DNA of 64,000 nucleotides from Nitrospira defluvii (GTDB lineage: Bacteria; Nitrospirota; Nitrospiria; Nitrospirales; Nitrospiraceae). The notes beneath the pieces are model-generated. The model saw only the letters and a program-made list of their open reading frames with translations, did no database searches and was not told the DNA's origin. The translations under genes and the position numbers were made by a program. This document shows, piece by piece, positions 17,188-50,182 of the stretch (position 1 is its first letter; every line of letters begins with the position of its first letter). Location: contig FP929003.1 in the NCBI GenBank assembly GCA_000196815.1, positions 4,177,501-4,241,500 of the forward strand. The letters run 5' to 3'.

Positions 17188-18429
17188 TCACGGACTGTCG
17201 AAGGTCCAGAGAATGCCCAGCAACACCAGATGCTGATTCGGCGTCAGGCTCAGCACACCAGGCTGGACTTCCCCACGCCTGAAAAATCCTCCGCCCGCCC
17301 CGGTCGATTCGTCCCATCGATGTTCAAGCCGTAGCGTCGTGTTCGTCCACTTGTAGGGAATTCGATATTCAATCGTTGAGGTCACGGCCTTGACGAATTG
17401 CTCCGAACCGGTCCAACGGCCGTTCCGGTCCCAATAGAACTCCGGCCGGACCGCCAGAGCCCAAGGTCCGGTCACATGCCATCGCGCGACCACATTGCCT
17501 CCCATTACAAACGCCCTGGGATGTCCCGGACGATCGGCGATGTTTTCGGTCCCGATATCATAGGAAGCCGCAAATGTCAGGTTATCCCCTTTCCATTCGA
17601 CGATATGATTCGCGTAGAAGCGCCAGAATTGCAAGGCCGTGTTGGTCTGATCCGGCCCTCCGTAGACCGTCTGTGTCAGGGTGAGTTGCGGAGTCGCCTT
17701 GTAAGCCCACTGCCCCCCATAACTCGGTTGGTCGTTCGGATGCGACAGGTGATAGTACCCGTTAACGATAAACCCCGCGACCGTCAGCTTGTCGGTGACC
17801 GGATATTTCGCATTGACGCCGAACATCATGTAGGGCGTGTTGTCGGCAATCCATGACCGGGTGTAGTTCACATTGTCCTTGGCATAGAGCGATTCGTAGC
17901 CGATGAGGCTATTAAACAGCCCGGCGGTGATCGTGAGCCCCTTCCCCACCGGAGCCAGATAGGACACATTCGCGCGATGGATGTGCCGAAGCGTATCGGC
18001 CCCGCCGACCTCACGCTCACCCTGTAAAAACGCAAAGCGTTCGGAGTCGTAGCCGCCTTGCACGCCAAGCTCCATACCCCAACGGGATGATTCGGTCGTG
18101 TCTTTCCGAACATAGGCCAGGGCCATATTGGGCGCGAACTCATTGTGCCGTGCCGCAGTCGCGCGATTCCGCCAGAGGTGATTCTCGGGAAAGTTGGCAT
18201 TCACGACGTAGCCGACATCCAGGTAGGCTCCGTAATGCCAGAGGCTCGCTCCCGTCTGGCCAGAGGGTACGGAGCCCGGGTCGGCAGCAGCAGCCGACGC
18301 AAGCAGTGCCCAGGAGATGGCCAGCCACCCGCCACGAACGGTCCAATAACCCAACGCCGTCAGGAGAGCCATCCAGACAGGCTTATACGGATACCCCCTG
18401 ATCCTCATCTCAGGCCCACCGTTCGACAC
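17188..18429 (-). CDS. Outer-membrane beta-barrel (porin-like) protein
   Basis: The 413-residue frame starts with GTG at 18429; an ATG at 18408 is equally possible. A long signal peptide (hydrophobic GGWLAISWALLASAAAAD) is followed by alternating amphipathic strands ending in aromatic residues (LTITAGLFNSL, LTVAGFIVNGYYHL, LTFAASYDIG) and a terminal strand LVLLGILWTFDSP, close to the usual beta-barrel end. The domain organisation resembles Bbp2-type porins. It probably lets a small solute cross the outer membrane. It lies downstream of the hyf genes but with a 114-bp gap, so co-transcription is uncertain. Confidence 0.8.
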   Translation of the reverse strand: MSNGGPEMRIRGYPYKPVWMALLTALGYWTVRGGWLAISWALLASAAAADPGSVPSGQTGASLWHYGAYLDVGYVVNANFPENHLWRNRATAARHNEFAPNMALAYVRKDTTESSRWGMELGVQGGYDSERFAFLQGEREVGGADTLRHIHRANVSYLAPVGKGLTITAGLFNSLIGYESLYAKDNVNYTRSWIADNTPYMMFGVNAKYPVTDKLTVAGFIVNGYYHLSHPNDQPSYGGQWAYKATPQLTLTQTVYGGPDQTNTALQFWRFYANHIVEWKGDNLTFAASYDIGTENIADRPGHPRAFVMGGNVVARWHVTGPWALAVRPEFYWDRNGRWTGSEQFVKAVTSTIEYRIPYKWTNTTLRLEHRWDESTGAGGGFFRRGEVQPGVLSLTPNQHLVLLGILWTFDSP

Positions 18430-18543: not shown

Positions 18544-19065
18544 TCAACTACCCGAGGCAGACTCATCCTGTCGAAGCTTCGCCAACACCGCTAGGATCTC
18601 CGCCGGGCGCGGGGGGCAACCGGAGATACGCACATCGACTGGAATATGCCGATCCACCGGCCCCGTCACGGCATAACTCCCTTTGAACATGCCGCAATTC
18701 ACGGCACAGTCTCCCAACGCGATGACGATCTTTGGGTCGGCTGTCGCCTTGTAGACATCTTTCAACGCACGCTCCATATTGACGGTCACCGGGCCCGTCA
18801 CGACCAGGGCATCGGCATGGCGCGGCGACGCCGCAATATGGACGCCGAAGCGCTCCACGTCATAGACCGGATTGGCCAGCGCATTCATTTCCATTTCGCA
18901 GGCATTGCAGGAACCCGTATCGACTTCGCGGATCGTCATCGAGCGCCGGAACGGCTTGGCCTTTTCGATGGCTTCCGGACCGATCGGCTCGGATGGCGCG
19001 GCTCCGACAGGATGTTGACCCGTCACGCTGCCGGTCTGAAGACTTTTCTTGAGGATGCGAAACAT
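18544..19065 (-). CDS. hyfI: HyfI/NuoB-like iron-sulfur subunit of the Ehr-type complex
   Basis: This small subunit carries the [4Fe-4S] cluster N2 of complex I and group 4 hydrogenases. All cluster ligands are present: two Cys in TGSCNACEMEMNA (about 51-54), one in LGDCAVNCG (near 120), and one in SGCPPRP (near 150). The final Pro-rich motif also matches. The protein (173 residues) is the last gene of the six-gene cluster and lies 70 bp after hyfG. It would take electrons to the interface with HyfG, whose metal site is missing. Confidence 0.9.
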   Translation of the reverse strand: MFRILKKSLQTGSVTGQHPVGAAPSEPIGPEAIEKAKPFRRSMTIREVDTGSCNACEMEMNALANPVYDVERFGVHIAASPRHADALVVTGPVTVNMERALKDVYKATADPKIVIALGDCAVNCGMFKGSYAVTGPVDRHIPVDVRISGCPPRPAEILAVLAKLRQDESASGS

Positions 19066-19135
19066 GGCGCCTCCTTGGCCGTCAGCAGTCAGCGATCAGT
19101 GTTCAGCTCGGAGCCGGCTGCTGAAGGCTTGTTTC

Positions 19136-20728
19136 TCACAGATCGTTTCCCGCGTAAGACAAGTTGAAACTCTTATTGATCAATGGAAAGTCCGGTACGA
19201 TATTGCCGAGCGCCGCCCATTGAATGGCCGGCCAATTCACGAAAGACGGATCGCGCACTTTGCAGCGATGAATCCGCCCTGCGTCCCCGGCCATGACGAC
19301 ATAGAGAATCTCGCCACGCCATCCTTCGACCGCCGACAGCGCCCATGCCCCCGGCTGTGGTTGGTGCATCGGCCGGGACACGAGCCGGCCCAGCGGGAGA
19401 CCACGGCGAACCTCGCGGATGAGACGGATCGATTCATGGATCTCATCCAGGCGTACCCGCATCCTGGCGCGCACATCGCCATAGCGGTAGAGGGCGACCC
19501 TCGGCTGCAGCACGTCGTACGCAGCAAAGGGTCGGTCTCGACGAAGATCCCGATCGATACCGGAGGCCCGGCCGACCACACCGATCACCGCATGGTCCCA
19601 GGCGATCCCTTCCGTGAGGATGCCGGTGTTCTCCAGCCGTTCCGTGAGCGAGGCGTTCGCGAACACAATTTTTTCAATGTCCGAAAAATCCTGCTCAAGG
19701 GCGTTCAGCTCCACCTCCACCTGCGCGAGCTGCAGGCCGGATAGATCGAGCGCCACTCCGCCGACACAATTGACGCCGCGCAGAAAGCGTGACCCGGTCA
19801 GGCGATCGTTGAGCTGCATGAGCTGCTCTTTCATCCGGCCGCAGTGGGCATGGGCCAGGGCATAGGCGGTGTCATTGCAGATGGCTCCCACATCGCCGAT
19901 GTGATTGTGCAACCGCTCCAGCTCCAGAAATAGCGTGCGCAGATAGCGGGCACGGGGCGAGACCTCCACGCCCTGCAACATCTCGACGGCCTGGCAATAG
20001 GCCAGGCTATGGCCGACGCTGGTATCGCCGGAAACCCGTTCGGACAACGGTACCGCTTCGGTCAACTGTTGCTGCTCGAACAATTTCTCAACGCCGCGAT
20101 GTTTCCAGAAATGGCGCACTTCGAGCTGCATGATGGGCTCGCCGGCCACCGAAAACCGGAAATGGCCTGGTTCAATGATGCCTGCATGGATGGGACCGAC
20201 AGGCACCTCGAACACCCCCTCACCATGAATTTTCCGGAAGGCATACTCTCCTTGCACCCGTCCCAGCACCCGATCCCAGGGAAAATCCCTTTTCAGCGGG
20301 TGGGACCCTTTCGGCCAATGTTCATGACGAACGAGCCGACGCAGATCGGGATGACCGATCGGAACCAGTCCGAACAGATCCCGAATTTCCCGTTCGTACC
20401 ATTTCGCCGCATGAAGGTGAGGCGTGATCGATGGAAATTCCCGCTCATCTCCATGGAGATCCGTCGCGAGCAGCAGCCAGTCTTTGCGTTCCGCCAACGT
20501 GAAGAGATAGCAGAGTTCGTAGCGTGCTTCGCGAGGGCGATGATCGACCGCCCAGAGCAGCGACAGCGATCCTCGCAACCCCGGGTTCGTATGCAGAAAA
20601 TGGGCGACCGTCGGCAGATCCTGCTTCTTCACCCTGAGCATCGGGACGCCGTGAACGGCGCACACCTCCGTGATGGCCTGCGTAAACGCCGCCTGCACCT
20701 GCTCGACCGCCGGACGCGCGTCGATCAT
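19136..20728 (-). CDS. hyfG: HyfG/NuoCD-like large subunit lacking Ni-Fe ligands (Ehr-type)
   Basis: This 530-residue fusion has a NuoC-like N terminus (about 1-160, including EREIRDLFGLVPIGHPDLR) and a NuoD/HycE-like C terminus. In hydrogenases the latter binds Ni-Fe by RVCGIC and DPCxxC. Here the first site reads ERVSGDTSVGHSLAY (no Cys) and the C terminus reads VPDFPLINKSFNLSY with no DPCxxC. All four ligands are absent, so hydrogenase activity is not expected. The rest of the family is well kept (LELERLHNHIGDVG, LTGSRFLRG). It is therefore an energy-converting-hydrogenase-related (Ehr) subunit, 4 bp after hyfF. Confidence 0.93.
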   Translation of the reverse strand: MIDARPAVEQVQAAFTQAITEVCAVHGVPMLRVKKQDLPTVAHFLHTNPGLRGSLSLLWAVDHRPREARYELCYLFTLAERKDWLLLATDLHGDEREFPSITPHLHAAKWYEREIRDLFGLVPIGHPDLRRLVRHEHWPKGSHPLKRDFPWDRVLGRVQGEYAFRKIHGEGVFEVPVGPIHAGIIEPGHFRFSVAGEPIMQLEVRHFWKHRGVEKLFEQQQLTEAVPLSERVSGDTSVGHSLAYCQAVEMLQGVEVSPRARYLRTLFLELERLHNHIGDVGAICNDTAYALAHAHCGRMKEQLMQLNDRLTGSRFLRGVNCVGGVALDLSGLQLAQVEVELNALEQDFSDIEKIVFANASLTERLENTGILTEGIAWDHAVIGVVGRASGIDRDLRRDRPFAAYDVLQPRVALYRYGDVRARMRVRLDEIHESIRLIREVRRGLPLGRLVSRPMHQPQPGAWALSAVEGWRGEILYVVMAGDAGRIHRCKVRDPSFVNWPAIQWAALGNIVPDFPLINKSFNLSYAGNDL

Positions 20729-20732
20729 ACGG

Positions 20733-22265
20733 TCACCTCACCACAATTACGTTGACGGCCCTGGTCAGCAGCGTCTGAATCGGCTCGGGAAGAACGAATC
20801 CAAGCCCCAACAACGCGACGATCATGATCATCAGCGGCACATGGCCGGCGGTCCACGACTCTCCCCGGGCGACACCGGCCGGGGGAGTGCCCCACACCAT
20901 GGCCCCGACGCGAAACATAAACCCGCCGAACAACACCACGGCAAAAAACAGAAACAGCGCGACGATGCCGAGGCTGCGCATCTCATCCGAGATCGTCATC
21001 GTCACAAACCGCCCGACATGCATCGTATCGGAGGAAAAGTCCTGCGCGGCCACCGCCGACACGACCAGCAACTCACTGACGAACGGCGAGAAGGGAGGTA
21101 ATCCGACCAACGCGCACCCTGCCACGAGAATCGCCACGGCAGTAATCGGCTGGGCACGCGCCAGCCCTCGCACCCCGTCGATTTCCAGGGTGTCGAATCG
21201 CCGATGGATATTGCCCGCGACAAAAAAGGCCAGCGCCTTGGCCACGGCGTGATTGAGCAGATGAAAGAGGCCGCCGAAGGTGCCGATCATCCCGCCGACT
21301 CCGAAACCGATCATGGCCAGCCCCATATGTTCGATGCTCGAATAGGCAAACAGCCGCTTGTAGTTGTGCTGAATCAGGATGAACAGGGAGGCCACGATGA
21401 ACGACAGCAGTCCGAAGGTGAGCAGCAGATTGCCGGTGAACTCCGGGGGAAGCGCCTGGTCCACCAGCGCCTTGCTGCGCAATACGGTATAGACCGCCAC
21501 CGTCTCCAACACCCCGGCCAACATCGCCGCAATCGGCGCCGGCGCTTCGCTGTAGGCATCGGGCAACCAGGTATGCATGGGAACCAGGCCCACTTTCGTG
21601 CCATAACCGACGAGCATGAAAATAAACGCCAGCTTGAGCACATTGGGGTCCAATTGGTTGGCCACGCCGATCAGCGCGGTCATATTGAGCGCCGAGCTCG
21701 CATCCCCCAGAACCCTCACAGAGGAGTAATAGGTGAGCACCACGCCGAAGAGCGCGAGGGCGATCCCCACCGAACAGAGAATCAGATATTTCCAACCGGC
21801 TTCGAGAGACTCCCGCCTGCGGAAAAATGCGATCAAGAAGGTCGTCGCCAAGGTGGTCCCCTCCAACGCCACCCACTGCACGCCCAGACTGTTCGCCACC
21901 GTCGCGGCGACCATCGCAAGCAGGAACATATGGAAGAGGAAGAAGAAGTGGCCGAGACGCTTCGGCGCGATGACGCCCCGGGCGACCCGATCGTCCATGT
22001 AGGACCACATGTAAAGGGAACAGGACAGGCCGATGGCCGTGATGATCACCAGAATAAAGTCCGAGAGCGCATCCACGTAGACAAAGCCGCCCAAGGTCGT
22101 CACCGACCCCTCGGCCAGTACCTGCCTCGTCAACGCCGTCTCGGCAACGGCCAGCGCCAGCATCGTCGCAAAGTTCACGACGTGTAGAACCCGGGCGCGA
22201 TGGATCACCAGACTGAGCAGACCGGCAAGTACCGGCCCTGTCAGCAGGACGATCACCGGCCACAT
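20733..22265 (-). CDS. hyfF: HyfF-like proton-translocating membrane subunit (NuoN/NuoM type)
   Basis: This 510-residue, very hydrophobic antiporter-like subunit contains about 14 predicted membrane helices. The conserved family elements include GYGTKVGLVPMHTWLPDAYSEA (Lys on helix TM7, pumping channel) and NHAVAKALAFFVAG (the second conserved Lys). It is one of two such subunits in the cluster and should move protons or sodium across the membrane, powered by the redox reaction of HyfG/HyfI. It starts 37 bp after hyfE. Confidence 0.92.
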   Translation of the reverse strand: MWPVIVLLTGPVLAGLLSLVIHRARVLHVVNFATMLALAVAETALTRQVLAEGSVTTLGGFVYVDALSDFILVIITAIGLSCSLYMWSYMDDRVARGVIAPKRLGHFFFLFHMFLLAMVAATVANSLGVQWVALEGTTLATTFLIAFFRRRESLEAGWKYLILCSVGIALALFGVVLTYYSSVRVLGDASSALNMTALIGVANQLDPNVLKLAFIFMLVGYGTKVGLVPMHTWLPDAYSEAPAPIAAMLAGVLETVAVYTVLRSKALVDQALPPEFTGNLLLTFGLLSFIVASLFILIQHNYKRLFAYSSIEHMGLAMIGFGVGGMIGTFGGLFHLLNHAVAKALAFFVAGNIHRRFDTLEIDGVRGLARAQPITAVAILVAGCALVGLPPFSPFVSELLVVSAVAAQDFSSDTMHVGRFVTMTISDEMRSLGIVALFLFFAVVLFGGFMFRVGAMVWGTPPAGVARGESWTAGHVPLMIMIVALLGLGFVLPEPIQTLLTRAVNVIVVR

Positions 22266-22302
22266 ACAGCACCTGCTCGCAGGTCATGCGTCATCGAGCG
22301 AC

Positions 22303-22968
22303 TCATTCCTTCAGCACCGTCAGCGTGCTGGTGTCCACGCTATCGAACGTATCCTGCAGCCGATGCGTGTAAATGCCGACAATCAACCCGGCCACCAGCA
22401 CATCGAAGAACACGCCCAATTCAACAATCAGCGGCATGCCGTACGCGGCCGCCGTGGCTCCCAGGAACACTCCATTCTCCATGACCAGGAAGCCGACCAT
22501 CTGCGTGATCGCCTTCTGCCGGGCGATCATGGTGAAAAATCCGATCAAAATAATGGCCAGCGCAATGGCCAGAGAATCGCGTGTCAGCAGGTAGCCGAGC
22601 GGAATGATGGGCTGCGTGATAAAGAAGGCGATGATGACCAACGCGCCGCAGATCAGCAGGCCCGCCGGAATGTTGATATTCATCCCCAGCTCGCGGGAGA
22701 CATTCAGACGCTCGATGACCTTCCGGAGAATGCGTGGCAGCACGATCACTTTGATGACGATCGTCAGGGCCGCCGCGAAATAGATGTGCTTATGTCCGGT
22801 CAGAAACGCGACGAGCGCGGCAGTCGCCGCCAGAAACGCGGACTGCAGCGCAAACAGATCCACACAGGCCGACAATCGACGCTGCGCCACGATGGCAAAA
22901 CAACAGAGCAGCAGCAGGACCGAGCAGAGATCGACGAGTTGTGAGCCCAATTGTGTCGAAGCGGGCAC
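22303..22968 (-). CDS. hyfE: HyfE-like membrane subunit (NuoK-related)
   Basis: A 221-residue integral membrane protein with about six helices. The region FFTMIARQKAITQMVGFLVMENGVFLGA contains the acidic Glu on a helix that matches NuoK's conserved Glu, part of the central channel of complex I. The N-terminal helices also follow HyfE. The gene lies 4 bp from hyfC and 37 bp from hyfF, so it belongs to the operon. Confidence 0.9.
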   Translation of the reverse strand: MPASTQLGSQLVDLCSVLLLLCCFAIVAQRRLSACVDLFALQSAFLAATAALVAFLTGHKHIYFAAALTIVIKVIVLPRILRKVIERLNVSRELGMNINIPAGLLICGALVIIAFFITQPIIPLGYLLTRDSLAIALAIILIGFFTMIARQKAITQMVGFLVMENGVFLGATAAAYGMPLIVELGVFFDVLVAGLIVGIYTHRLQDTFDSVDTSTLTVLKE

Positions 22969-22972
22969 CGCG

Positions 22973-23941
22973 TTACCCTTTCAGCGTATAGAAGAAGACC
23001 AGCGCGAGCAGCGACAGGATGAACGCCGCGCCCAGCATTTCTGGCACCCGAAACAATCGCAGCTTCGCGAACATCGATTCGATTACACCGATCACAAGCG
23101 CCAGCGCAGCGACTTTCCCAAGATAGACCAAGAGACCCACGGCGATCGCTGACGGTGCCAGACTCGTGGCGATACCCCATGGTGCAAAGACGTTCACGAT
23201 CAAGGTCAAGAACACCAGCAACTTGATGCCGGCCGCCCACTCCATCAACGCCAGGTAGCGGCCGGAATACTCGAGCAGCATGGCCTCATGGATCATCGTC
23301 AATTCCAGGTGCGTCGCGGGATTATCCACCGGGACACGACCGGTTTCCGCCAGCGTCACGATGAACAAGGCGGCCAGCGCCATCAAATGCGCGGGCGGAG
23401 CCACCACGACCCCTTCCATCAACGCGGACTGATGAACGATGGTGCTCAAATTCGTGGAGCCGGCGGTCAGCGCGATAGAAAGGATGGACAGCATCATCGC
23501 CGGCTCGGCCAGCGTCGCGACGATCGCCTCGCGGCTGCTGCCCATCCCTCCGAACGCCGATCCTGCATCGAGCCCCGCCAGGATGAGGAAGAAGGTCCCC
23601 AGCGCCAGTAGATAGACAAGCGCAATGATGTTCCCCGCGAAATTGAGCGGTGTGTGAGAGACGAACACCGGCATCAACAGCCCCGCCGCTACGGTCGAGG
23701 CAAAAACAATGTACGGAGCCGCGGTAAAAATCCAGGAGGTCGTCGAAGAAATCACCGGCTGCTTCCGGAACAATTTGGCCAGATCGGCGTAGGGCTGAAA
23801 AAGACTCGCCCCGCGGCGGCACTGCAGGCGTGCTTTGACCTTTCGGATCAGACCGACGACAAACGGAGAGAGAGCCAACAACAACGCGAGCTGAACGACG
23901 ACCAGCACGATAGGGATGAACGACTGCATAGCTCCCGTCAC
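22973..23941 (-). CDS. hyfC: HyfC/NuoH-like membrane subunit
   Basis: This 322-residue membrane protein belongs to the quinone-tunnel/anchor subunit family. The motif RVPVDNPATHLELTMIHEAMLLEYSG carries the Asp/Glu residues that NuoH places in the loop linking the soluble arm to the membrane arm. About eight helices are predicted. The start is a GTG at 23941; an ATG lies 12 bp downstream. Whether quinone binds is unknown, because Ehr-type complexes differ in this region. Confidence 0.9.
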   Translation of the reverse strand: MTGAMQSFIPIVLVVVQLALLLALSPFVVGLIRKVKARLQCRRGASLFQPYADLAKLFRKQPVISSTTSWIFTAAPYIVFASTVAAGLLMPVFVSHTPLNFAGNIIALVYLLALGTFFLILAGLDAGSAFGGMGSSREAIVATLAEPAMMLSILSIALTAGSTNLSTIVHQSALMEGVVVAPPAHLMALAALFIVTLAETGRVPVDNPATHLELTMIHEAMLLEYSGRYLALMEWAAGIKLLVFLTLIVNVFAPWGIATSLAPSAIAVGLLVYLGKVAALALVIGVIESMFAKLRLFRVPEMLGAAFILSLLALVFFYTLKG

Positions 23942-23993
23942 TCAATGATCGAACGACCAGGCACGACACCTACCCATATCCCGCCGGCGCTCT

Positions 23994-26021
23994 CTACCCC
24001 GCCCATAACAACAACAGCACCAGCGTCACAAAAATGTAGGTGAGATACAGATGGAGACTGCCGGCCTGAATGATGCGCAGCCGGTCGGCTGCCGCCAGCA
24101 GCAATGCCACCACCGGCCGATAGAGGTATTTCTCGAAGACCGGTTCAATGTGCGACTCGAAACGCTGATGCTTGATGAAGTACTTCGATTGCTCCAGAAA
24201 CTCCTGCTCCAGCTTCACCGTCGGCTGGTAGATGGTTTCAAAGACCTGCTTGATCGGTTGCGCGAAGCCGGTCGCGGTGTATTCCATGCGAGGCGTCAGA
24301 TTCAGCCCGCATCCCCAGGTCTTGTAATAGCGCGCGCCCAGCGCCTTCCCGAAGAGTCGGGCAATCAGCAGCCCCAACGCCCCCGCCACGACCAGGAGCA
24401 TGGCAAGCACCGGCGTCGAGATACTCGAAAATTCCACCGTCACCGGCGCCACCACCCAGCCGTCGAGCGCCAGCACCTGCGAACTGATAGCCGCACCGGT
24501 CAATGGAGCCGTAACCCGATCCAACAATGGGACAACCAGCATGGGCGCCAGCCCCAGCACAATGCAGAGCCCTGCCAAGAAGCCCATCCCGACCCGCATC
24601 GACCGGGGCACTTCCGTCGCATGGCGGGCATGGGAGCTGCGCGGCTGTGCCAGAAACGACATCCCGAACGCCTTCGCAAAACAAGCCAGCGCCAGCGCGC
24701 CCGTCAAAGCCAACATCGCGGCGGCAATCGGCAACATCAACTTCAGAAACAGGGTCGGCAGCTGGAAGCTGAGAAACAAACTCTGAAACACCAGCCACTC
24801 GCTGACGAACCCGTTGGTGGGCGGAAGGGCGGCGATGGAGACGGCGCCGACCAGAAAGAAGGCGCCTGTCCAAGGCATGCGCCGGAGCAAGCCGCCGTAC
24901 TCTTCGATCTGTCTCGTATGGGTGGCGAACTGTACCGCCCCCGCGCCGAGAAACAACAACGCCTTGAACGCCGCGTGGTTGATGGTATGGTACAGACCCG
25001 CCAGTAATCCGAGCGCAGCCAGTTCATGCAAGCCATAGGTGTGGAAGATCATCCCTGCGCCCATCCCCAACAGAATGATGCCGATGTTTTCCACACTGTG
25101 AAAGGCGAGCAGGCTCTTCAGGTCATGTTCCATCAAGGCATACATGACACCCAGGAGCGCCGACACCGTGCCGGCGACCAACAACGTGAAGCCCCACCAC
25201 CAGGGGAATTCCCCGCCCATGAAATCGAAGTACACCCGGATCAACCCGTAGATGGCCGTCTTGATCATGACCCCTGACATCAATGCCGACACGTGAGACG
25301 GGGCGGCGGGATGCGCGTAGGGCAGCCACACATGCAGCGGGACGATCCCGGCCTTCGCGCCGAATCCGATCAAGGCCGTGAAAAACGCGATCGATCGTAA
25401 TCCCTCAGGAAGTTGCTGGTCGGGGTGGCGAAACGCCTCGAAGGAGAAGGAGCCGGTTTCCTGGAAAAAAATCAAAAACGTGAGGATGATGAACGCGGTG
25501 CCGACGTGCGTCATGATGAGATAAAACAACCCGGCCTCGCGGACGCCGGGTTTCTCGTGCTCCGTCACAACCAGCACATAGGACAGCAGTGACATGACTT
25601 CCCAGAGGATCAGGAAGAAGAACCCGTTGTCGGCCAGGACCACCAGGGTCATGGCGAGCAAAAACCCGTTGAGGAGGGAGCCCATGGCGGCGATAGATGC
25701 CCGCCCATAGAGTTCTGCCAGGTAACCCAGCGCAAAGATGGATGCGGCAAGGCCGACCACGGAGATCGTGAGCACGAAGAACGACGCCAACGGATCGAGG
25801 CGGATTGCAACGCTGAGAAAGGGAATCGATGAATCAACGGAAGCGGTCCATGGCTCCGGCGCGAGAAGCCCCGCAAGCCCAAGGACCATACCGGCGAAAC
25901 CTGCCGCCGCCGCCAGCCCATGTGCGACGAGGTTCTGAATCCTCGCTTTCCCGGAAAAACATGGAGGAAGGATGACGCCGGCGATGTAGATCGCCAGCAG
26001 GCCGACAAGTAGAACGGTCAT
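23994..26021 (-). CDS. hyfB: HyfB-like large antiporter membrane subunit (NuoL/NuoM type)
   Basis: The frame reaches a TTG at 26057, but the ATG at 26021 (MTVLLVGLLAIYIAGV) resembles the family start and is preferred (675 residues). The core has the antiporter motifs FGAKAGIVPLHVWLPYAHPAAP and NHAAFKALLFLGAGAV with their Lys residues. A C-terminal extension from about residue 530 includes a soluble stretch (TRMEYTATGFAQPIKQVFE) and a last helix, as in HyfB. It is the first gene of the cluster and would form a proton-pumping module. No ferredoxin-like HyfA/HyfH gene lies nearby, so the electron entry point is unclear. Confidence 0.92.
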   Translation of the reverse strand: MTVLLVGLLAIYIAGVILPPCFSGKARIQNLVAHGLAAAAGFAGMVLGLAGLLAPEPWTASVDSSIPFLSVAIRLDPLASFFVLTISVVGLAASIFALGYLAELYGRASIAAMGSLLNGFLLAMTLVVLADNGFFFLILWEVMSLLSYVLVVTEHEKPGVREAGLFYLIMTHVGTAFIILTFLIFFQETGSFSFEAFRHPDQQLPEGLRSIAFFTALIGFGAKAGIVPLHVWLPYAHPAAPSHVSALMSGVMIKTAIYGLIRVYFDFMGGEFPWWWGFTLLVAGTVSALLGVMYALMEHDLKSLLAFHSVENIGIILLGMGAGMIFHTYGLHELAALGLLAGLYHTINHAAFKALLFLGAGAVQFATHTRQIEEYGGLLRRMPWTGAFFLVGAVSIAALPPTNGFVSEWLVFQSLFLSFQLPTLFLKLMLPIAAAMLALTGALALACFAKAFGMSFLAQPRSSHARHATEVPRSMRVGMGFLAGLCIVLGLAPMLVVPLLDRVTAPLTGAAISSQVLALDGWVVAPVTVEFSSISTPVLAMLLVVAGALGLLIARLFGKALGARYYKTWGCGLNLTPRMEYTATGFAQPIKQVFETIYQPTVKLEQEFLEQSKYFIKHQRFESHIEPVFEKYLYRPVVALLLAAADRLRIIQAGSLHLYLTYIFVTLVLLLLWAG

Positions 26022-26542
26022 CGTTGCAGTATGAACCTCAAGGAAGATACCCCACAACCAGACACAGAATGCATTCGATCACTCCCCCTGGTCTTCGAGA
26101 TGTGAACCGGAAAATCTTGACAGCCTCTAGGAACCCTAAAACATACGGTTTGACACATCAACCGATAACCGAAAAGCGACCGTGCACGACGGCCATAACG
26201 CAGAACCCGCGCATCCATTTCATGCGAATTCAGGTTCCCCCGTGGGACCGTGTCGGCTCCAATCGGACCGGCCTCCTCATGCCGTTCATGTGATGGAGAA
26301 GGGGAGGCACCAGTGGCGCAATCGCCTTGCCGATATAGGCCTGCGAGAGACTGCCGATTGCATGATAAAAAGTGAGGATTCCGACCGTTAGATGGGTGAG
26401 TTCCGGAAACATCTCCGATGTCAGATTCAGCCGCATGCAGACACTGGAGAAAAGGCCGGTGTAATGACGACATGGAGGACGCTCAATGCAGCAGAATGGC
26501 TGACCCATCGGTGTTGGGCGCTTCGCCCCTCTCACTCCCGCT
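26022..26542. other. Intergenic stretch before hyfB with no convincing gene
   Basis: About 520 bases separate hyfB from the cupredoxin gene. The hyfB promoter must lie here, but no clear -35/-10 pair was picked out. A minus-strand frame at 26230-26430 encodes 66 residues with one hydrophobic stretch (HLTVGILTFYHAIGSLSQAY). It has codon use like a gene but no ribosome-binding site, so it may be a remnant. Confidence 0.4.
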
Positions 26543-27472
26543 TCAATGCTCCTGCTTGTGGATCATCGGATCGATTTCCCGCTTCGTTTCTTCGAGCACG
26601 TTATAGCGATTGTACGGATGCTCCATCACCTCGTTGGCATAGAGCCGCCCCGTCGGCGCCGGGACGCCGATGGTGGCGCCAACAGTCCCCCTTGGAGTAA
26701 TGGTGACCGTCTGCTCAACAGTCGCCCTGATGTAGGGATGCCAGACAACCAACTTATAGGTGCCCGGCGGCACATCGGTCAGGGTAAACCGGCCATGCTC
26801 GTCGGTCTTGGCAAAATACGGATTGGTGACGGCCAGTCCCCAGCTCTCCATGTAGGCATGGAAGCCGCATTGCATGACGAAGATCCGGCGACCCTTGCTG
26901 AGATTGACCAATTGCTTCATCGGCGGGCCGGCCATATGTTTGTGGTACATCCCGGCATCGCTGCGATCTTTCAGATTGCGCGGGTGTTGCGGATTCATCG
27001 GCAGCGGCACATTGAACAACACGCGGGCACCTAATTGGGACGTTTCATAAGCCTGAATGTCGTGCATGACGGGATCCATGTTGACCACTGTCACAGATTG
27101 ATCGTCCCGCACAACCGTGGTGAACGGTTCGAAGAGGCAGTCTTTCGCATCGATTTGCGGTACGCTCCCTTCGCTGAAGGATTTGCCCTTGTCGATCCCT
27201 TCCAGATAAACCACCACGTCGCGAAACTCGCCCCCAGGCCCGACCTGGAACGGTTGCAGGATGCGCCAGCCTCGCCCATCCGAAATGCGCCCGCAGTAGA
27301 ATTGGTCCGGCAAGGTCGTGAGGTTGTACCCCTTCGGCTTGGGGACAGTCCCTTCGAGCTTGACGGTGCCCGTAAGAGTCCCACCCTCTGAAACCGTGAT
27401 TGCGTCATAGGCCCAGACGACTTCTCCGCACATGGTCGCAACAAGCAGCAAGACAGTCATGGCGTAATACAT
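26543..27472 (-). CDS. Exported cupredoxin-type protein with C-terminal carboxypeptidase-regulatory-like domain
   Basis: The ATG at 27472 follows a GAGGAG site; the longer frame runs through a repeat and is rejected. The protein (309 residues) begins with a signal peptide cleaved near VVWAYDA. The region around residues 130-210 matches a type 1 copper site: His in PVMHDIQAYE and the Cys-His-Met trio in MQCGFHAYMESW. A beta-sandwich regulatory domain follows (about 225-280, GRFTLTDVPPGTYKLVVWHPY). The layout suggests a periplasmic redox or copper-binding protein. It is not part of a known pathway here, but the gene lies between the hyf cluster and a repeat. Confidence 0.78.
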   Translation of the reverse strand: MYYAMTVLLLVATMCGEVVWAYDAITVSEGGTLTGTVKLEGTVPKPKGYNLTTLPDQFYCGRISDGRGWRILQPFQVGPGGEFRDVVVYLEGIDKGKSFSEGSVPQIDAKDCLFEPFTTVVRDDQSVTVVNMDPVMHDIQAYETSQLGARVLFNVPLPMNPQHPRNLKDRSDAGMYHKHMAGPPMKQLVNLSKGRRIFVMQCGFHAYMESWGLAVTNPYFAKTDEHGRFTLTDVPPGTYKLVVWHPYIRATVEQTVTITPRGTVGATIGVPAPTGRLYANEVMEHPYNRYNVLEETKREIDPMIHKQEH

Positions 27473-27565
27473 ATGAGGGCTCTCCTCTACCAGGTTTCGG
27501 AAAAACTCATTTTGAGTCCCAAAGCCACCACAGATACGCGGTGTGGGACGACGTTGAACAGCCTC

Positions 27566-27690
27566 GCAGGATGCGCAAAAAGGCCGTCCAGCAAGGCCGC
27601 AGCGAGCACAGGGGCGAATCGTACTCTTGCGGTACGGTGAGCCGCTGAGCGATGCAAGAACGCCGCTGGCGGACTTTTTCCGCATCCTGC
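27566..27690. repeat. Long-hairpin palindromic repeat, copy 2 of 3
   Basis: The ends gcaggatgcg (27566) and cgcatcctgc (27690) are perfectly complementary, followed inward by caaaaaggcc/ggactttttc. The interior core caaggccgcagcgag ... cgtactc ... cggtacg ... gatgcaagaacg is shared with the copies at 17064 and 36260. It lies between the start of the cupredoxin gene and the stop of a small TPR-like gene. Confidence 0.85.
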
Positions 27691-27716
27691 TACAGCGTCA
27701 TACAGCGATGTTCTGT

Positions 27717-50166: not shown

Positions 50167-50182
50167 TGGCACAGAGCGTGCT
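50167..50182 (+). promoter_or_regulatory. Possible sigma-54 (-24/-12) promoter
   Basis: TGGCACAGAGCGTGCT has GG and GC dinucleotides exactly 10 bp apart, as in the TGGCAC-N5-TTGC consensus, but the -12 element has G in place of T. It lies 35 bp before the nuclease gene start. The NtrC-type regulator at 28472-29830 could act here, though no enhancer was found. Confidence 0.3.

Follow-up and report, generated by a model that had tools for sequence, protein, structure and literature searches.

Ehr-type Hyf complex of Nitrospira defluvii and its Patescibacteria relatives: candidate stages in a stepwise loss of redox centres

Introduction

Ehr complexes combine a group-4-like large subunit that lacks the NiFe-ligating cysteines with a small subunit and antiporter-like membrane subunits (PMC6349859, PMC10284858, PMC7305129, PMC12542776). 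An earlier description of hyfBCEFGI in Nitrospira treats it as a putative group 4 hydrogenase (PMC5596200), and loss of the CxxC pairs was reported in comammox Nitrospira (PMC7305129). The Nitrospira complexes have since been named Ehr (PMC10284858, PMC10432482), with those of comammox Nitrospira placed near group 4f (PMC10284858), and a further report describes the motif loss in a canonical nitrite oxidiser (PMC12542776). A CxxC-less Nitrospira hyfG of the Ehr class is thus not new, having been in print from 2020 to 2025 (PMC5596200, PMC7305129, PMC10284858, PMC12542776). Passages of Jaffe et al. 2020 (PMC7304191) likewise describe Ehr without NiFe cysteines in Patescibacteria (CPR), monophyletic within the CPR, and the CPR members of the present set are in all likelihood these proteins; the same passages make no mention of N2 ligand loss, ATP synthase adjacency, or kinship with Nitrospirota. 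Earlier reports of N2 loss in the CPR or of atp adjacency may exist beyond the open-licence literature searched. New here are the joint Nitrospirota–CPR clade, the difference in ferredoxin domain, the loss of N2 ligands in the CPR, and the atp and kdpA neighbours.

Hydrogenase 4 and formate hydrogenlyase (FHL) of E. coli (HyfA-J, HycA-I; 7z0s) share the subunit frame B, C, E, F, G, and I with the complex encoded in the window (the whole stretch of 64,000 nucleotides of Nitrospira defluvii DNA analysed here), which, in contrast to them, lacks HyfA, HyfD, HyfH, HyfJ, the NiFe ligands, and the C-terminal extension of the large subunit. The sulfane sulfur reductase MBS of Pyrococcus has also lost its NiFe site while keeping the pump; however, it retains two of the four NiFe cysteines, has a three-Cys proximal cluster and further clusters, and is without the glutamate of the E21 type, the equivalent of which HyfG retains as E186 (PMC7684303). 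HyfG has no cysteine at any of the four NiFe columns and HyfI has four N2 ligands, which sets the complex apart from MBS/Mbx. Complex I is comparable in its NuoB/C/D/H/K/L/M-like parts, but the hyf cluster contains neither NuoI nor the NADH module genes (NuoE/F/G), the CxxC of HyfI is of the hydrogenase type, and the quinone-site His and Tyr of NuoD align with Ile and Gly in HyfG. Mrp antiporters, in which antiporter-like subunits operate without redox centres, are proposed as the working analogue, although they lack a NuoB/C/D-like arm and none of the six hyf genes encodes a small subunit of the MrpE/F/G type.

The hyf gene cluster

The genome of the nitrite oxidiser N. defluvii is a single contig of 4,317,083 bases. 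Six adjoining ORFs on the minus strand, all open and in the order hyfB-C-E-F-G-I, run from 26021 down to 18544 in the window:

23994..26057, minus strand: hyfB, NuoL/MrpA-type antiporter-like subunit (NCBIfam PRK06521, hydrogenase 4 subunit B, above cut-off)
22973..23941, minus strand: hyfC, NuoH-like membrane anchor (Pfam NADHdh, 5.9e-50)
22303..22968, minus strand: hyfE, NuoK-related membrane subunit (NCBIfam PRK11492, hydrogenase 4 membrane subunit, 6.6e-29)
20733..22265, minus strand: hyfF, NuoN/M-type antiporter-like subunit (NCBIfam hydrogenase 4 subunit F, 7.6e-129, under the curated cut-off)
19136..20728, minus strand: hyfG, large subunit fusing NuoC- and NuoD-like parts and lacking NiFe ligands (Pfam Complex1_30kDa and Complex1_49kDa)
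18544..19065, minus strand: hyfI, NuoB-like small subunit with one [4Fe-4S] site of the N2 type (Pfam Oxidored_q6, 5e-33)

The hyfB gene can be read from a TTG at 26057 (687 aa) or from an ATG at 26021 (675 aa, a length common to many relatives), the latter probably being the real start. As the preliminary description of this locus had stated, no HyfA or HyfH ferredoxin gene lies within the cluster. The genome search for a separate HyfH or NuoI that it proposed returned Fer4_7 matches only outside the window, the two best of which (574070 and 198627) adjoin the two complex I NuoD loci.

HyfG: a replaced nickel site and a conserved pocket

HyfG was aligned with E. coli HyfG, HycE, and NuoCD, and three segments are counted to its pocket:

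20009..20041, minus strand: HyfG L1 motif ERVSGDTSVGH, residues 230-240; Ser233 and Thr236 replace Cys1 and Cys2
19139..19204, minus strand: HyfG L2 motif NIVPDFPLINKSFNLSYAGNDL, residues 509-530; Ser524 and Gly527 replace Cys3 and Cys4, at the protein end
20153..20203, minus strand: HyfG loop PVGPIHAGIIEPGHFRF, residues 176-192, including H181 and E186; present in 59/59 Nitrospirota sequences and 0.98 conserved in the CPR

Relative to E. coli HyfG and HycE, VCGIC has become VSGDT and DPCYSC has become NLSYAG, so the claim that all four nickel cysteines are missing stands. The protein terminates three residues past Gly527 (...GNDL), and the C-terminal maturation extension is absent. Among the 59 Nitrospirota HyfG sequences, none has a cysteine in the L1 window; G234 and D235 are invariant, S233 and T236 occur in 58 each, and LSYAGND is kept with few changes. 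Given this invariance, the pocket is a maintained site, the product of neither decay nor error. A sequencing error hiding CxxC pairs, one of two refutations that had been named beforehand, is ruled out by the occurrence of the same pocket (SGDT ... LSYAGNDL) across the 59 sequences; the other, a second HyfG with intact ligands, fails because, apart from hyfG, PF00346 matches just two complex I genes of the NuoD type in this genome.

The frame of the protein is hydrogenase-like and hydrogenase names persist in databases, which could be taken to mean that the complex does act as a hydrogenase through unusual Ser/Thr ligands, or else is a decaying relic of one. Both ideas are very improbable: the first is opposed by the missing maturation extension and by the absence of HypD (PF01924) from the genome (G000), as from 55 of the 61 genomes searched, including most hyf-bearing relatives, and the second by the invariant pocket and the six open reading frames. 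The CxxC pairs, Hyp maturation (HypD), and HyfA/HyfH of group 4 [NiFe] hydrogenases are all wanting, and since NiFe ligands, maturation extension, and HypD are missing together, the complex is not an ordinary hydrogenase. Its identification as an Ehr-type complex, made from the letters of the DNA at the outset, is supported by these same absences and by the presence of a small subunit and antiporter-like membrane subunits, and by sequence the complex belongs to the group 4 hydrogenase/complex I superfamily.

Of the solved relatives, HycE of the E. coli formate hydrogenlyase (7z0s_E) comes closest to HyfG in both sequence and fold, its match to the AlphaFold model being the best (TM 0.90). The prediction covered HyfG alone, and because segments 161-210 and 512-530 fall below pLDDT 50 the model is uninformative on the pocket, the geometry of which was set aside. 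From profile positions, E186 appears to align with E21 of MbhL, a glutamate with a role in proton reduction (PMC7684303); by virtue of this correspondence, a route for protons into the pocket may be retained.

The small subunit and the membrane arm

18616..18909, minus strand: HyfI N2 ligands C53, C56, C120, and C150 (sequence comparison)

HyfI thus keeps every cysteine of its cluster, as first supposed, and the four ligands are Cys in all 55 complete Nitrospirota sequences. A further cysteine, C124, lies four residues past the third ligand in Nitrospirota only; this position is Gly in the CPR, in relatives that retain the four NiFe cysteines (4-Cys relatives), and in E. coli.

Of the lysines and glutamates said to be retained along the ion path of HyfB, HyfC, HyfE, and HyfF, nearly all are present: E153, K235, K266, and E420 of HyfB (numbered from the TTG start), E146 and E224 of HyfC, E135, K224, and E398 of HyfF, and, in all groups, E164 (MEN) of HyfE. 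The exception is the TM8 lysine of HyfF, the position of which is occupied by T255. A second glutamate of HyfE, E183, is kept in Nitrospirota and the 4-Cys relatives and is Gln in the CPR sequences shown, bar the divergent L190 (Glu) and L192 (Asp); both HyfE positions were read by eye, the columns of the automatic HyfE–NuoK alignment being meaningless.

The strict conservation of the N2 ligands argues for a redox or cluster-dependent role in Nitrospirota. A soluble low-potential carrier (ferredoxin or flavodoxin) might donate electrons directly to N2 of HyfI, from where they would reach a quinone or another small acceptor inside the HyfG chamber, with proton pumping coupled to the transfer. 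In the reverse direction, menaquinol and the proton-motive force would serve to reduce ferredoxin, which the reductive TCA cycle could use. N2 may itself be the reactive site, like the proximal cluster of MBS. Such an N2-based redox pump is a serious possibility, though a rather doubtful one. The retention of E186 and H181, the closeness of the fold to the redox enzymes FHL and complex I, and the precedent of proximal-cluster catalysis in MBS after loss of its NiFe site (PMC7684303) all speak for it. However, HyfH/NuoI and a fused ferredoxin domain are both lacking, Ile and Gly occupy the places of the quinone-site His and Tyr, and the HyfI cluster has four cysteines with normal CxxC spacing, as opposed to the three-Cys cluster of MBS.

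A clade shared with Patescibacteria

Relatives were collected by one scan of genome contigs with the HyfG alignment, from which the best 80 of 527 were taken; other phyla may be missing. Within these 80, the closest relatives outside Nitrospirota are Patescibacteria (CPR), at 43–49 percent identity, and a few 4-Cys proteins come from Planctomycetota (including Jettenia) and one Bacillota MAG. All CPR sequences derive from metagenome or single-cell assemblies. In a tree of the Nitrospirota, CPR, and 4-Cys sequences plus E. coli HyfG/HycE, computed by a quick method with the ligand columns removed and showing some long branches, Nitrospirota and CPR group together as a single Cys-less clade (SH-aLRT 99) that excludes both the 4-Cys relatives and the E. 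coli proteins. The monophyly of the Cys-less clade, with 4-Cys relatives outside it, implies a single loss of the NiFe site among the sequences sampled. As delimited by these alignments, the clade is narrower than Ehr, having its own invariant pocket (SGD[TS] ... LSY[AST]GND) and no ferredoxin subunit.

The 4-Cys relatives (L199, L200, and L201) possess a HyfI of 239–263 aa with a fused ferredoxin domain containing two CxxCxxCxxxC motifs. HyfI of the window, by comparison, is 173 aa long, has none of these motifs and no C-terminal ferredoxin domain, and is left with a single cluster site, N2. The CPR members differ from other Ehr in having lost the ligands of this site as well: in 22 of 23 loci three or all four N2 positions hold another residue, mostly Asp or Thr (patterns such as DCDD, TCDD, DADD), and only the Azambacteria locus L126 has all four. 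A [4Fe-4S] cluster with all-Asp ligation is not expected.

The CPR operons nonetheless retain the order hyfIBCEFG, and the antiporter Glu and Lys residues are held in both the Nitrospirota and the CPR clades: in the CPR, the E/K/K/E series of HyfB, the glutamate and lysine of HyfF, and the glutamates of HyfC are kept, except that one CPR HyfC has Asp at the second Glu. Among CPR HyfG sequences, the three pocket segments are conserved at 0.98, 0.87, and 0.92, against 0.69 for the remainder; between CPR and window HyfG, two segments stand at 0.98 and 0.89 and L1 at 0.59, against 0.44 for the remainder. From these alignments the CPR complex is apparently a complex-I-like machine without a redox centre.

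This has a bearing on the proposed N2-based redox pump, since relatives that lack the N2 ligands still conserve the pocket and its shared role is therefore unlikely to be electron transfer from N2. It also weakens the earlier suggestion that the complex couples an electron transfer other than that of H2 to pumping, which is further strained by the presence of one Fe-S site and no electron-input module. A non-redox, ion-exchange role becomes at least as likely as a redox one, given that the CPR sister complex keeps pocket and ion path without the ligands.

Two CPR loci have features of their own. HyfI of the divergent locus L192 lacks the N2 ligands, yet its C-terminal extension has one CxxCxxCxxxC, which may be left over from the ferredoxin domain. 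The Patescibacteria MAG G062 carries, besides its hyf operon, a second complex-I-like cluster (L198) with a NuoI-like protein and a NuoB-type subunit that has the tandem-Cys motif GLACCAIEM.

Genomic neighbours

In 8 of the 25 CPR genomes having both genes, atpG lies at most 10 kb from hyf, while most CPR hyf loci are away from atp. The binomial probability of this proximity is about 1e-6 at a background of 3 to 4 percent; counted by lineage (five lineages of an assumed fifteen) it is about 6e-5. In CPR genome G072 (L204), a gap of 188 bases separates the full operon atpIBEFHAGDC from a co-oriented hyfIBCEFG behind it, and the same atp-then-hyf order is found in L124, L131, and L143 as far as their contigs extend. 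Elsewhere, hyf follows atpG-atpD-atpC (L190), is inserted within the atp genes (atpG-hyf-atpD in L135, atpD-hyf-atpC in L186), or adjoins an atp cluster facing it (L191). The c-subunits of two CPR atp operons (L204 and L205), read by eye, are without the ES/ET motif of the Na+ type, and for this reason the ATP synthase there looks to be H+-type. A permease beside some CPR hyf operons could not clearly be called NhaD and is instead MamN/ArsB-like.

The gene kdpA follows hyf in 9 Nitrospira genomes, although KdpA is absent from the window's own genome. No oxidoreductase was found as a constant neighbour of hyf in the Nitrospirota and CPR loci examined, a further point against an N2-based redox pump.

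An arrangement in which formate dehydrogenase (FDH) feeds electrons to the complex has been proposed for Ehr of other phyla and for Nitrospira hyf (PMC6349859, PMC5596200). Within Nitrospirales, hyfG is indeed present in 26 of 28 genomes with an FDH alpha subunit (TIGR01591, over cut-off) and in 8 of 33 without one (Fisher 6e-8, kinship ignored). However, the FDH gene of N. defluvii lies about 2.4 Mb from hyf and, having NuoE-like and (by size and place) NuoF-like partners of its own, looks like a self-sufficient NAD-linked enzyme. Well-assembled genomes contain hyf without FDH (G029, G043, G049, and G057) or FDH without hyf (G008 and G012), and no locus read has an FDH gene beside hyf. With the co-occurrence, strong as it is, confounded by kinship and the loci far apart, FDH was set aside as a fixed partner, and the arrangement is considered improbable.

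The remaining neighbours in the window are the following:

17188-18429: gene for a BBP2-type outer-membrane porin, next to hyfI on its downstream side, found in the same place in about ten relatives
26543-27685: predicted exported protein with a carboxypeptidase-regulatory-like domain and a Cys-X2-His-X3-Met stretch (QCGFHAYM), blue-copper-like by eye
27487-27693: repeat some 207 bases long, dispersed in the genome
28472-31224: response regulator of the NtrC/AtoC type with an AtoS-like histidine kinase, both upstream of hyf

The ORF at 26543-27685 adjoins hyf in L044, L050, L055, and L057 too; its real start is probably further downstream, because the repeat overlaps its 5′ part. Queried against the genome, 27470-27700 has 44 matches; 11 of these extend over all or almost all of the repeat, at 96–100 percent identity. 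The NtrC/AtoC-type regulator also stands beside hyf in L044, L055, and L056. The sigma-54 promoter that such a neighbour suggests for hyfB was rejected, as the window contains a single -24/-12-like match, at 50167, and more would be expected by chance. In three Nitrospirales hyf clusters (L050, L053, and L057), a second hyfF-like gene encodes a third antiporter-like subunit.

Gated cation/proton exchange as a possible function

The loss of N2 ligands in the CPR with the pocket kept, the antiporter residues shared by both clades, and the ion-handling neighbours (atp and kdpA) lead us to favour gated cation/proton exchange for the Nitrospira complex, tentatively and as only slightly more probable than an N2-based redox pump. 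Protons would be moved against cations through HyfB, HyfF, HyfC, and HyfE, with an existing ion gradient as the drive, the whole acting as an Mrp-like exchanger that balances H+, K+, or Na+. The HyfG pocket (H181, E186, S-G-D-T, and LSYAGND) would serve as a proton or ligand gate instead of a metal catalytic site and would be mechanically coupled to the membrane arm via the conserved GPIHAGIIEPGHFR loop, leaving N2 in Nitrospira as a structural element or redox sensor. The main point against cation/proton exchange, as far as can be judged from sequence, is the strict conservation of N2 in Nitrospirota; moreover, the CPR complex may have acquired a new function after transfer, and its role need not then hold for that of the window. 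The lack of MrpE/F/G-type subunits in the operon, the missing KdpA of this genome, and the position of most CPR hyf loci away from atp also count against cation/proton exchange.

Implications

Taken with the adjacency to ATP synthase, the loss of N2 ligands in the CPR suggests that ion movement by such machines can do without electron transfer. It is close to an even call whether redox centres were shed stepwise, the NiFe site and ferredoxin domain first and N2 next in the CPR, where the complexes (behind, inside, or beside atp) would be redox-free ion movers with the NuoB/C/D arm as gate, the window complex then being a one-cluster intermediate. How complex-I-type machines couple chemistry to ion movement is a long-standing question, and, if the stepwise loss is real, the series from 4-Cys relatives through the one-cluster complex of the window to the ligand-free complexes of the CPR would make it possible to test directly the part played by the peripheral arm once electrons are removed. 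CPR bacteria without respiratory chains would gain a candidate device for handling ion gradients, and the genes that annotations of nitrite oxidisers still call hydrogenase 4 would have a role other than that of a hydrogenase.
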